From Nitrospira sp. (lineage in GTDB: Bacteria; Nitrospirota; Nitrospiria; Nitrospirales; Nitrospiraceae), in assembly GCA_015904045.1 (NCBI GenBank), contig JABMDG010000290.1, positions 1-6,825 on the forward strand: a stretch of DNA of 6,825 nt. Direction: 5' to 3'. Below the pieces are notes generated by a model that saw nothing but the letters and a program-made list of their open reading frames with translations, ran no database searches and was not told the DNA's origin. Below, piece after piece: positions 3,945 to 6,825 of the stretch; the first letter of the stretch is position 1; each line of letters starts with the position of its first letter. Both the position numbers and the translations under genes were made by a program.

Positions 3945-4454
3945 TCAGCGGATGGTGAATGAGGCGGGTGTGACCTGGCCGGAGGAGATCCAATAGTTCT
4001 TGACGTCCGGTGTGGGATGCATGAGTGAAATCAACAGATACGTCGGGTTGGGCAGATTGATCTTAGGCCAGATCTCTTCATAGTCGGTCGCGATCTTGAT
4101 GTCGGTGACGGACGGACGGGCCGGGTCGTGCGGATGGGAATGGTAGACGACTTGAAGATCGAGTCCGTGAGTGCGCATGTCTTTCTTGGCGGTTGAAAAA
4201 TCCTGCATGTCCATGACAAAGGCAATCTCCGCCCGTTCAGCCGGCGACAGCCGCTCCAAGTGGACGATTTTGGCGGAATCGAATGCAGAGAGATTCTGTG
4301 CGCCTTCCATGGCGACGATATTCTTAATCCGGTACACTCGGCTCACCACACCGTTGGTGCCCGCCAAGATCCCGCAGCACTCGTACGGCGCGAGCTCGCG
4401 CGCGTGGGCGATCATGTCGTCGAGAATATGTTGAGGAATGACGAGGTCTGTCAC
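3945..4454 (-). CDS. JAMM/MPN+ metallopeptidase, Mec-like (M67 family)
   Basis: A 169-residue zinc metallopeptidase of the Jab1/MPN+ fold. The JAMM signature is complete: Glu25 in PYECCG, then H-S-H-P (His105, His107), Ser115 and Asp118. Prokaryotic members beside sulfur-carrier genes cut after the carrier's C-terminal Gly-Gly; Mycobacterium Mec frees cysteine from CysO-Cys, and Wolinella HcyD trims HcyS and frees homocysteine. Compared with Mycobacterium Mec (about 146 residues, from memory), this protein has extra residues between about 58 and 98, just before the HSHP motif. The start is GTG (4452-4454), one base after the moeB TAA and with no clear Shine-Dalgarno, so translational coupling to moeB is likely. 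No signal peptide is seen, so it acts in the cytoplasm. The family is firm; the exact substrate is inferred from its neighbours. Confidence 0.92.
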   Translation of the reverse strand: MTDLVIPQHILDDMIAHARELAPYECCGILAGTNGVVSRVYRIKNIVAMEGAQNLSAFDSAKIVHLERLSPAERAEIAFVMDMQDFSTAKKDMRTHGLDLQVVYHSHPHDPARPSVTDIKIATDYEEIWPKINLPNPTYLLISLMHPTPDVKNYWISSGQVTPASFTIR

Positions 4455-4455
4455 G

Positions 4456-5259
4456 TTAGATAGTGCAGCTGACGGTGTAGTCCATGCTCAGATCTGTGAT
4501 CTTCGGATTCGGCCCGCAAAGCGGGCAGGCGGGATCCTTGGGGCGTCCGACCTTGCGGAACTTCATGTCGAGCGCGTCATAGATCAGCAGTTTGTCGGCG
4601 ATGGTTTCGCCGGTGCCGAGAATCTCTTTGATGGCCTCGGACGCCTGCAAAATCCCCATGGTGCCGGCCAAGACTCCCAGGACACCGGCTTCCTGGCAGT
4701 TCGGAACCAGGCCGGCCGGAGGCGGTTCCGGATAGAGGCAGCGGTAACAGGGGTAACCGGCATGGGGCTTGATCGTCGTCAGCTGTCCCTCGAATCGGAA
4801 CATGCTGGCGGAAATCAGGGTTTTCCTGGCAAAGAAACAGGCATCGTTCACGAGAAAACGCGTCGTGAAGTTGTCCGACCCATCGAGCACAATGTCGTAT
4901 TGGGAGACGAGGGAAAGGATGTTCTCGGCATCGACCAATTGGTGATACGCGTTGATGGTAATTTCAGGATTGATCGCCGAGAGTGTCTTCTTGCCTGATT
5001 CGACCTTCGGTGTGCCCAAGGTCGCGGTCGAGTGCATGATCTGCCGCTGCAAATTCGACAGGTCCACGACATCGCCGTCGACGAGGCCGATGGTCCCGAT
5101 GCCGGCCGCGGCAAGATAGAGGCCGGCCGGGGAGCCGAGACCGCCGGCGCCGATCAATAGGACCTTGGCGCGCTTCAGCTTGAGCTGGCCCTTGCCGCCG
5201 ACATCCTGGAGAATGATGTGACGGCTGTAGCGTTGGATTTCTTGTTCCGTGAGTTCCAT
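4456..5259 (-). CDS. moeB: MoeB/ThiF-type E1-like sulfur-carrier adenylyltransferase
   Basis: A 267-residue E1-like enzyme. It should use ATP to adenylate the C-terminal glycine of a ubiquitin-fold carrier, preparing it for thiocarboxylate formation. Visible features: the N-terminal RYSRH (10-14), the nucleotide loop GAGGLG (37-42), Asp62 after the second strand, LQRQ (70-73), DGSDN (126-130) with Asp near the Mg/ATP site, four zinc cysteines in C-x-x-C pairs (171/174 and 245/248), and Cys188 in PNCQEAG, the position of the conserved E1-family cysteine. The length is close to E. coli MoeB. There is no C-terminal rhodanese domain as in MoeZ/MOCS3, so another protein must supply sulfur. The C-terminal tail after the zinc site is about 19 residues. 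The nearest carrier gene is the CysO-like one two genes upstream, making it the likely partner; service to molybdopterin or thiamine synthesis cannot be excluded. The ATG at 5257-5259 has no clear Shine-Dalgarno. Confidence 0.94.
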   Translation of the reverse strand: MELTEQEIQRYSRHIILQDVGGKGQLKLKRAKVLLIGAGGLGSPAGLYLAAAGIGTIGLVDGDVVDLSNLQRQIMHSTATLGTPKVESGKKTLSAINPEITINAYHQLVDAENILSLVSQYDIVLDGSDNFTTRFLVNDACFFARKTLISASMFRFEGQLTTIKPHAGYPCYRCLYPEPPPAGLVPNCQEAGVLGVLAGTMGILQASEAIKEILGTGETIADKLLIYDALDMKFRKVGRPKDPACPLCGPNPKITDLSMDYTVSCTI

Positions 5260-5267
5260 GCCGGTTT

Positions 5268-5342: not shown

Positions 5343-5591
5343 CTATTCGACGACGTTCAATTCGATCGGATCGACGACGCACCCCTTCTTGCGCAGGCCT
5401 TCGAGCGCCCGCTCGATTTCCGCTGTTTCGCCTGAGAGTTCGACATCCACCCAGCCCGTGGTTTCGCGCACGTCGGCCCGCCGCACGTTGGTCACGACGT
5501 TGTACTCGCGGCCGATCTGGTAAATGATGGGCTCCTTGACCTTGTCTTCCGGAAACCGGACGTGAAACCGCAAGTGTGATTGGTGCGCCAT
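5343..5591 (-). CDS. Stand-alone NIL-domain protein
   Basis: An 82-residue single-domain protein with the NIL pattern: a ferredoxin-like alpha/beta fold with a conserved centre, here YNVVTNVRRADVRETTGWVD (residues 30-49), followed by a strand with Gly (VELSGE) and a helix plus last strand (EIERALEGLRKKGCVV). NIL domains are best known at the C-terminus of MetN, the methionine ABC transporter ATPase, where they sense methionine. They also occur fused to ferredoxin-like domains in proteins needed for homocysteine formation in methanogens. Here it is free-standing, with no transporter domains. It has one cysteine (Cys71). The ATG at 5589-5591 starts 2 bases after the carrier stop and has a good Shine-Dalgarno (GGGAGG, 8 bases upstream) inside the carrier's 3' end. 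A role as amino-acid sensor or sulfur-transfer partner of the cluster is inference. Confidence 0.88.
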   Translation of the reverse strand: MAHQSHLRFHVRFPEDKVKEPIIYQIGREYNVVTNVRRADVRETTGWVDVELSGETAEIERALEGLRKKGCVVDPIELNVVE

Positions 5592-5593
5592 GG

Positions 5594-5866
5594 TCAGCCT
5601 CCCGCGATCGCCGGAACGATGGAGACTTCGTCGCCGGTCTTTAATGCGGTGTCTTTGCCCTTCAGGAAACGGATGTCTTCTTCGTTGACATAGATGTTCA
5701 CGAACCGGCGCAGTTCGCCGCTGTCGTCGCAGAGACGGGCTTTGATGCCGGGGTAGGACGCGTCCAGCGTGTTGACGAGGTCCGCGATGGAGCCGGCGGC
5801 CACGTCGACCTCACCCTGGTTCTTCGTCAATGGCCTCAGCGGAGTTGGAATACGGACTTTAATCAT
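5594..5866 (-). CDS. cysO: CysO-like MoaD/ThiS-family sulfur-carrier protein
   Basis: A 90-residue ubiquitin-fold (beta-grasp) carrier ending in the exposed Gly-Gly tail (PAIAGG). The terminal glycine is the site that becomes an acyl-adenylate and then a thiocarboxylate. It resembles Mycobacterium CysO more than generic MoaD or ThiS: it shares IPT-x-LRP-x-T near the start, RFVNIYVN-x-ED-x-RF in the middle (residues 54-67) and a PA-x-AGG end (recalled family sequence, not searched). No residues follow Gly-Gly, so no C-terminal unmasking is needed, unlike Wolinella HcyS, which carries an extra Ala. The ATG (5864-5866) overlaps the thrC TGA in an ATGA, so translation is probably coupled to thrC. 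The E1-like and JAMM genes downstream supply activation and product release. The symbol reflects similarity; whether the product is cysteine is not shown. Confidence 0.92.
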   Translation of the reverse strand: MIKVRIPTPLRPLTKNQGEVDVAAGSIADLVNTLDASYPGIKARLCDDSGELRRFVNIYVNEEDIRFLKGKDTALKTGDEVSIVPAIAGG

Positions 5867-6825
5867 GCGTCACCACCACCGTTTTTCCCGAGCTTAAAGG
5901 TTTTCTCAAAGGCCACGAGGCTCGGTTGAATACGGGTCGGCCGCCCGACGGCATCGATGACCGCTTCCTGCGTCTTCAATCCGTTGCCTGTGATGTAGGC
6001 CACCGTGACTTCGTTCTTCTTGATGATGCCCTGTTTAACCAGCTTCTTGAGGACGCCGATCGTCACACCGCCGGCGGTTTCTGCGAAGATGCCTTCGGTT
6101 TGCGCGAGCAGCTGGATCCCTTCCACCACCTCTTCGTCGGTCACCATGTCCATGGCACCGTGGCTCTCAGCGGTAGCCTTGAGCGCATAGTAGCCGTCCG
6201 CCGGATTGCCGATCGCGAGCGATTTGGCGATCGTCTTCGGCTTCACCGGCTTGAAGAAGTCGCGTCCGGCCTTGAAGGCCGTTGAAATCGGGGAGCAGCC
6301 TTCCGCCTGGGCGCCGTTGATCTTGGTGCGAACCTGGTCGATCAGCCCCACGTATTTCATCTCGTGCAGGCCCTTCCAGATCTTGGTCAAGAGCGAGCCG
6401 GATGCCATAGGAATCACGACCTGATCGGGAGTTTTCCACCCCAGCTGTTCCACTGTTTCAAACGCGAGGGTTTTGGACCCTTCCGCATAGTAGGGGCGGA
6501 TGTTGATGTTGACGAAGGCCCAGCCGTGCTCGCCGGCGATTTCACTGCAAAGCCGGTTGACGTCGTCATAGTTCCCTTCAACTTCAACGACGTTCGGCTT
6601 GTAGATCAGATTACCGAGCACCTTGGCCGCTTCCAGGTCCCCTGGAATGAACACATAGCAGCGCATGCCTGCCGCAGCGGCGTGTGCGGCGACAGAGTTT
6701 GCCAAATTCCCTGTCGAGGCACAGGCGACGGTTTCGAACCCGAGTTCACGGGCGCGCGTGAGCGCCACAGCCACGACGCGATCTTTGAAGGACAGGGTCG
6801 GATGATTGACCGTATCGTTCTTAAT
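5863..6825 (-). CDS. thrC: Threonine synthase (PLP fold type II), 5'-truncated by the window edge
   Basis: Threonine synthase turns O-phospho-L-homoserine into L-threonine plus phosphate using PLP. 320 residues are visible; the frame is open through the right edge, so the GTG at 6772-6774 is internal (Val). Upstream of it lies PTLSFKDR, whose Lys (codon 6784-6786) should be the PLP Schiff-base residue. Other marks, numbered from the window edge: STGN (37-40, substrate carboxylate loop), EGSKTLAFE (115-123), MASGS (140-144, PLP phosphate region), QAEGCSP (173-179) and the C-terminal TGNGLK (279-284) typical of threonine synthases. About 80-100 N-terminal residues are missing, judging from the family's usual length near 400. 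It ends in an ATGA overlap with the carrier gene. It is the only PLP enzyme visible in the cluster, so it holds the place that CysM or MetY takes in known carrier-dependent pathways. An ordinary threonine synthase role is the default; sulfur use is speculative. Confidence 0.94.
   Translation of the reverse strand: MKNDTVNHPTLSFKDRVVAVALTRARELGFETVACASTGNLANSVAAHAAAAGMRCYVFIPGDLEAAKVLGNLIYKPNVVEVEGNYDDVNRLCSEIAGEHGWAFVNINIRPYYAEGSKTLAFETVEQLGWKTPDQVVIPMASGSLLTKIWKGLHEMKYVGLIDQVRTKINGAQAEGCSPISTAFKAGRDFFKPVKPKTIAKSLAIGNPADGYYALKATAESHGAMDMVTDEEVVEGIQLLAQTEGIFAETAGGVTIGVLKKLVKQGIIKKNEVTVAYITGNGLKTQEAVIDAVGRPTRIQPSLVAFEKTFKLGKNGGGDA

Follow-up and report, generated by a model that had tools for sequence, protein, structure and literature searches.

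Here we present a comparative analysis of a five-gene cluster on the minus strand (positions 3945–6825) of Nitrospira sp. contig JABMDG010000290.1, of which the whole 6,825-nucleotide stretch analysed is termed the window. Sequence comparison favours reading the cluster as a homocysteine route of the MetM/MetO type to which NIL, E1 and JAMM genes have been added. It very probably makes homocysteine for methionine, with its threonine synthase-like enzyme dependent on pyridoxal phosphate (PLP), here called ThrA, predicted to form homocysteine from O-phosphohomoserine and a carrier thiocarboxylate. Apparently new are the standalone NIL protein, E1 and JAMM genes dedicated to the route, its apparent standing as the sole one in Nitrospira and its exchange with two others; the comparison shows alternative homocysteine routes within one phylum, the Nitrospirota. 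Nitrospira is a genus that includes complete ammonia oxidisers, and the cluster is a candidate answer to its homocysteine supply, the complete genome of N. moscoviensis being without the textbook genes. At least one further homocysteine pathway was considered still to be found by Price et al. 2018, where the relevant passages name Aquifex, Pyrolobus and Acidimicrobium and not Nitrospira (PMC5764234).

Reading of the open frames and family profiles bore out the five minus-strand genes that an earlier sequence-only reading had placed here. The thrC-like gene (5863–6825; 320 amino acids (aa), the 5' part cut at the window end) matches PF00291 and TIGR00260 (270 bits, over cut-off) and overlaps by 4 bases (ATGA) with the gene of a CysO/MetO-like sulfur-carrier protein (5594–5866; 90 aa; PF02597), whose Gly-Gly end was likewise confirmed as a C-terminal AIAGG. 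After a gap of 2 bases follows the standalone NIL protein (5343–5591; 82 aa; PF09383, 53.8 bits), then an E1-like adenylyltransferase of the MoeB/ThiF type (4456–5259; 267 aa; PF00899, 269 bits; NCBIfam MoeB/ThiF/UbaA families) and, 1 base further on, a Mec/HcyD-like JAMM metalloprotease (3945–4454; 169 aa, GTG start; PF14464, 69.3 bits) containing HSHPHDPARPSVTD. The overlap and the two short gaps had been read correctly; an 83-base gap on the minus strand between NIL and E1 (5260–5342) had gone unmentioned. It holds imperfect repeated runs, its counterpart in N. moscoviensis (L055 9028–9127) differs in sequence, and an Rfam scan of the window returned nothing at gathering score. The JAMM protein shares 92–93% identity with its nearest counterparts in Nitrospira, both the closest protein and the closest locus.

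The comparison drew on 148 Nitrospirota genomes of unstated completeness, with the complete genome of N. moscoviensis (L055/G001) as reference. The order E1–thrC–carrier–NIL–E1–JAMM was found in 72 of the 80 Nitrospira loci (in one of these, L022, JAMM lies about 5 kb further), and the remaining 8 start at a contig end within the cluster. The linkage exceeds chance, and the absence of conserved linkage that the sequence-only reading had named as evidence against its proposal was not observed. In relatives, therefore, a second E1 gene lies upstream of thrC, in a region that falls outside the window; the E1 present in the window matches the second E1 gene of locus L001 with 591 bits. A separate cysK lies upstream of the cluster in relatives, as in N. 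moscoviensis, where a cysteine synthase (TIGR01139, 462.7 bits) stands upstream of the second E1.

In the proposed route, E1 would adenylate the carrier at its C-terminal Gly-Gly, after which sulfur, probably from TusA in some relatives, would turn that end into the carrier thiocarboxylate. ThrA, as a member of the MetM family, would take O-phosphohomoserine from the threonine branch and eliminate its phosphate, the thiocarboxylate adding to the gamma carbon to give carrier-bound homocysteine. The JAMM protein would release homocysteine from the carrier, probably after trimming the short tail behind the Gly-Gly in relatives with a tailed carrier; MetH would convert homocysteine to methionine, and NIL is probably a methionine sensor or helps to hold the complex together. 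All of the chemistry, like the role of NIL, is what we infer from a conserved operon, a separate subfamily, a gap-filling pattern and, in some relatives, a context of S-adenosylmethionine (SAM) riboswitches and metK–ahcY, all of which the comparison revealed. That ThrA is most likely the homocysteine-forming enzyme follows from the gap filling together with operons that place the cluster beside metK–ahcY behind a SAM riboswitch in some relatives, and beside aspartokinase, homoserine dehydrogenase, a candidate homoserine kinase and canonical thrC in others.

A NIL match was found in 142 of the 148 genomes, one per genome, and 141 of these loci were classified by profiles, G081 being left out. 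ThrA adjoins the carrier in 121/141; the other 20 comprise 13 with a PF01053 enzyme above 100 bits (the contig-cut G017 among them), 5 with HcyBio (DUF39, PF01837) close to NIL and 2 that are contig-cut (G115, G039). As three contig-cut genomes carry ThrA on another contig, the total comes to 124/148 genomes, and no ThrA-type match was found in any of the 24 ThrA-less genomes when these were searched for ThrC, types being assigned by profile, or in G023 by score and length alone. For PF01053, which covers MetB/MetC/MetY/MetZ and lyases, a match was called strong above 100 bits, stricter than Pfam's 27 bits. Strong matches occur in 50/148 genomes; 137/148 pass the 27-bit line by way of weak, partial matches that do not exceed 46 bits, and the best match of no genome among the 148 lies between 46 and 150 bits. 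The nine weak matches scanned, from three genomes, all belong to other families, and of the eight in N. moscoviensis (at most 36 bits) the seven scanned all fell to aminotransferase, DegT or beta-eliminating lyase families. HcyBio was found in 6/148 genomes, MetX strongly in 2/148 (466 and 473 bits against a curated cut-off of 500; at most 29 bits in all others) and MetA over cut-off in 0/148. Neither strong PF01053 nor HcyBio is present in 92 of the 148 genomes, 90 of which have ThrA, and the 24 ThrA-less genomes include 16 with PF01053 and 6 with HcyBio. No genome of the 148 has both ThrA and HcyBio. JAMM accompanies ThrA in 122/124 genomes; of the six genomes with HcyBio, four lack it and two have a weak match.

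Cysteine synthesis shows another distribution: cysK is over cut-off in 130/148 genomes, with and without the cluster and including 5/6 with HcyBio, and lies below it in 15 further genomes at E 7e-33 or better and weakly in G042, G055 and G067. Cysteine, named beside homocysteine as a possible product by the sequence-only reading, is for that reason unlikely to be what the cluster makes. The complete separate sulfhydrylation set which that reading had considered damaging to its proposal did not turn up in N. moscoviensis either, where cysK is present and no MetX, MetA, strong PF01053 or DUF39 enzyme was found. This organism grows in mineral medium and has MetH (open frame of 1243 aa), and the ThrA cluster is its apparent sole homocysteine route. 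A PF02574 match is absent in 67 genomes, MetE not having been searched for.

The enzyme that had been taken for a threonine synthase is, by its sequence, a separate, non-canonical subfamily of the ThrC superfamily. Assigned according to how they scored against the window protein, the ThrC matches fell into 164 ThrA, 75 canonical and 3 long-type records; as some genomes are represented twice, the distinct sequences number 134 (by the last 250 residues), 52 and 3. The window ThrA carries STGNLA, ASGSL, EGSK, AIGNPADG and SFKDR. Relative to canonical enzymes GNT has become GNL, GNAGN has become ASGSL, RIGNPxSW has become AIGNPADG and NPYRxEGQKT has become RPYYxEGSKT or its F variant, with many further positions fixed differently and the lysine motif SFKDR retained. 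The full set of four new motifs occurs in 164/164 ThrA records, 0/75 canonical and 0/3 long-type, EGSK alone being matched by two canonical records, and the canonical PLP/substrate motifs GNT, NPxRxEGQKT and GNAGN are replaced in all 164 ThrA records. Several of the switched positions presumably bind PLP phosphate or substrate, as is reported for the T. thermophilus structure. In a 72-row tree ThrA forms one clade with support of 100/100, set off by a branch 4.07 changes per site long. Three solved threonine synthases (B. subtilis, A. aeolicus, T. thermophilus) lie outside it and score 519–587 bits with the canonical profile against 210–239 with the ThrA profile. A structure prediction of ThrA had a mean pLDDT of 44.5 and was discarded.

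That ThrA might be a plain threonine synthase, with carrier, E1 and JAMM engaged in another sulfur task such as tRNA thiolation, molybdopterin synthesis or protein tagging, is highly improbable. The fixed switches at the presumed PLP and substrate sites speak against it, as do the tie of ThrA to carrier and NIL genes, in places with SAM riboswitches and metK–ahcY, and a second, canonical ThrC over cut-off in 29/29 PF01053-negative ThrA genomes (among 40 genomes searched), despite the TIGR00260 score of the window enzyme and the threonine synthase label of its homologues in sources that name them. The threonine synthase reading also draws on a Microcystis homologue, 51.6% identical to S. albulus MetM, which acted in vitro as threonine synthase and deaminase and is not fully a MetM according to the passages on it in PMC12172450. 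In searches with ThrA as query, 237/237 homologues among the matches listed score as ThrA, which suggests that many proteins named threonine synthase may be homocysteine synthases. Omnitrophota, Margulisbacteria, Caldisericota, Schekmanbacteria and Acidobacteriota are among the sources named for these homologues, the spread beyond Nitrospirota being judged from protein names and one plasmid-collection record (Nonomuraea).

Operon context was taken as the same-strand run with gaps below 900 bases at the 121 ThrA loci. The carrier is present in all 121, followed by E1 (91), JAMM (90), cysK (80), thiS (70), canonical thrC (36), a proposed homoserine kinase of TIGR02535 type (35), aspartokinase (24), metK (17), ahcY (17), tusA (11) and homoserine dehydrogenase (8). 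Three arrangements recur: type I, (metK-ahcY-)thiS-cysK-E1-thrA-carrier-NIL-E1-JAMM; type II, when most complete, hom-tusA-E1-JAMM-thrA-carrier-NIL-thrC-hsk-lysC; and type III, JAMM-thiS-cysK-thrA-tusA-carrier-E1-NIL. Genes are called metK and ahcY from a reading of their sequences in L172, and low upstream 'THRB' matches in type I loci (34–50 bits where given) were taken as cysK. Directly before cysK, loci of types I and III (L168 3296–4424, L172 and others) have another small carrier, ThiS-like and usually ending in GGG plus a short tail; the two genes perhaps form a CysO/CysM-like cysteine unit. A phosphoglycerate-mutase-like operon gene (L135 8442–9662) scores 566.9 bits to TIGR02535 ('proposed homoserine kinase'), and its place in the operon supports that proposal. 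Of the 47 loci scanned, 5 have a SAM_alpha/SAM-II riboswitch upstream. It stands in front of the operon in L145 (39.4 bits) and L147 (38.9 bits; cut-off 36 for both), two PF01053-negative loci of type III, whereas in L172 (44.6 bits, cut-off 44), L174 (44.6) and L185 (45.8) it comes before metK. No SAM riboswitch was seen at N. moscoviensis L055 or at L165, the third type III locus, which has little upstream sequence.

The operons bear on two further explanations. ThrA could be an O-phosphohomoserine-dependent cystathionine gamma-synthase drawing its sulfur from cysteine, with a lyase of another family finishing the conversion and the carrier system feeding cysteine synthesis; thiS-cysK-E1 upstream in type I operons fits this, such cystathionine synthesis is known in plants, and the class I/II aminotransferase-family proteins of N. 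moscoviensis could include a lyase. It is nevertheless still more improbable than a plain threonine synthase, as it is the carrier and NIL that stick to thrA (carrier in every run, cysK in about two thirds), and MetM is reported, in the relevant passages of PMC12172450, to use O-phosphohomoserine for homocysteine. Least probable of all is that ThrA makes cysteine on the carrier from O-phosphoserine or O-acetylserine in the manner of CysM-CysO-Mec, for in spite of the CysO-like carrier (presumed identity of its closest structure) and the frequent cysK and thiS in the same runs, cysK occurs whether or not the cluster is there, what these genomes lack is the homocysteine step, and type II operons hold aspartokinase, homoserine dehydrogenase, the homoserine-kinase candidate and thrC.

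Several observations weigh against the proposed homocysteine route itself, as does the in vitro behaviour of the Microcystis enzyme. G019 and G047 show none of the three routes (ThrA, strong PF01053, HcyBio), G119 and G123 have ThrA without a JAMM match, and a strong PF01053 enzyme also occurs in 34/124 ThrA genomes, the three with SAM-II and metK–ahcY among them; that of G142 has methionine gamma-lyase as best match, below cut-off. E1 lies outside the same-strand run of ThrA in 30/121 loci and JAMM in 31/121, 42 of the 47 loci scanned have no SAM riboswitch, and E1 and the carrier could serve other pathways as well. The Fisher test of ThrA against the other routes (p = 3e-9) is uncorrected for kinship, and the losses of ThrA cluster in few clades: on a tree built from 49 homoserine-kinase-like proteins, five changes are required to account for the ThrA-less loci (one such row, G115, being just contig-cut), with the ThrA-bearing G085 sitting within the main ThrA-less clade.

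The sequence-only reading had proposed a third variant of the protein-thiocarboxylate pathways. Homocysteine as product fits the comparative evidence; the core reaction itself had already been reported for Streptomyces by Hasebe et al. (2024, Appl Environ Microbiol 90:e01247-24). As related in PMC12172450, MetM is a homocysteine synthase that uses O-phosphohomoserine, and in S. albulus it is accompanied by a SAM riboswitch and by the sulfur-carrier-like gene metO. As far as those descriptions go, the two systems share a ThrC-like enzyme on O-phosphohomoserine (here predicted) and an adjoining carrier gene, whereas in the Nitrospira cluster NIL, JAMM and either one or two E1 genes join the pair; the likeness rests on the descriptions and on a Nonomuraea gerenzanensis homologue rather than on the S. 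albulus MetM sequence. The ThrA-type gene of N. gerenzanensis, an actinomycete (L302), scores 535.8 bits with the ThrA profile against 196.5 with the canonical one, and shares most motifs, ASGSQ replacing ASGSL. Its protein is 55% identical to N. moscoviensis ThrA over 395 aligned residues, against 38–39% to four canonical enzymes, and joins the ThrA clade (short tree search, long branch). A SAM riboswitch stands in front (68.7 bits) and a carrier gene directly behind, an arrangement that matches metM–metO as far as it is reported, and no NIL, E1 or JAMM match lies within about 8 kb. The same genome has a separate JAMM–carrier–cysteine synthase locus (L303 5443–7213) in the mec-cysO-cysM arrangement. 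Hasebe and colleagues are also said to have found in 2024 that MetO acts as a thiocarboxylate and that the metM–metO pair occurs in other bacteria and archaea.

Among other carrier systems, HcyS-MetY-HcyF-HcyD of Wolinella, reportedly the work of Krishnamoorthy and Begley in 2011, to which PMC5764234 refers, uses a carrier thiocarboxylate with E1 and JAMM partners to produce homocysteine. Carrier, E1, JAMM and the product (here proposed) are alike, whereas the PLP enzyme there is MetY (PF01053) and here belongs to the ThrC superfamily (PF00291/TIGR00260). CysO-CysM-Mec of Mycobacterium makes cysteine on a carrier; the window resembles it in its carrier, closest in sequence to 3dwg, and its Mec-like JAMM, and differs in a PLP enzyme that is not of CysK/CysM type and in the probable substrate. 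Operons of ThiS/MoaD, E1, JAB and cysteine synthase have been described with the same carrier, E1 and JAB logic, threonine synthase and NIL being absent from the main text (Iyer et al. 2006, PMC1779556). The relevant passages of PMC5764234, PMC7311316 and PMC1779556 do not describe the present cluster; in the open-licence literature, subscription papers lying outside the scope, no published MetM/MetO route with added NIL, E1 and JAMM and no paper on a methionine gap in Nitrospira or Leptospirillum was found.

The closest solved sequence to the window carrier is 3dwg_C, which we take to be CysO. AIAGG lies near the C-terminus in 133/134 carrier matches, with nothing behind it in 38, a tail of 1–9 residues in 89 and a longer one in 6. 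Such a tail would need trimming, by analogy with Wolinella HcyS, for which trimming is known. The strict JAMM pattern is kept in 85/100 relatives, most others deviating only at the residue after HxH.

For the window NIL protein the closest solved sequence is MetN 2qsw, a weak match (E 0.0018). A NIL domain in M. acetivorans is described as methionine-binding and regulatory in part of PMC12068725, and on that account NIL is proposed here as a methionine-binding regulatory or partner subunit, which would give the family a concrete place in a second homocysteine pathway. In the first, a route of DUF39 enzyme (HcyBio) and NIL/ferredoxin protein makes homocysteine, according to the pertinent passages of PMC5764234. 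Use of a NIL protein for homocysteine is thereby common to both, whereas NIL there has two ferredoxin motifs and an HcyBio partner and the cluster has neither: two motifs per NIL protein were found in 5/5 HcyBio loci with NIL and in 0/134 other NIL proteins checked.

In ThrA-less type II loci both thrA and canonical thrC are gone from the run. A long-type thrC lies at most 0.5 kb from a PF01053 gene, elsewhere in the genome, in 11 of the 16 ThrA-less PF01053 genomes, and in G143 the two share one 848-aa frame (L279 1273–3819). We infer that one pair of O-phosphohomoserine enzymes (thrA and canonical thrC) has been exchanged for another (PF01053 and long-type thrC). G139 has thrC and PF01053 matches on one strand, with an 856-aa open frame at the PF01053 match, and G129 an 852-aa open frame at its PF01053 match. 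Tentatively, and with less than even probability, NIL may be the methionine-sensing subunit of two unrelated homocysteine pathways, serving the DUF39 enzyme when joined to ferredoxin domains and gating a MetM-E1-carrier-JAMM complex when bare, the PF01053 enzyme that adjoins or is fused to another ThrC replacing MetM on O-phosphohomoserine with the same carrier, E1 and JAMM genes in MetM-less Nitrospirota.

Two further minus-strand genes of the window lie downstream of the cluster. A 105-aa protein (3546–3863), just downstream of the JAMM gene, has a signal-like start and no family match, and a 666-aa protein (1523–3523), without Pfam or NCBIfam match, has a lipobox-like start and many GGDDxY/GNDxY repeats.

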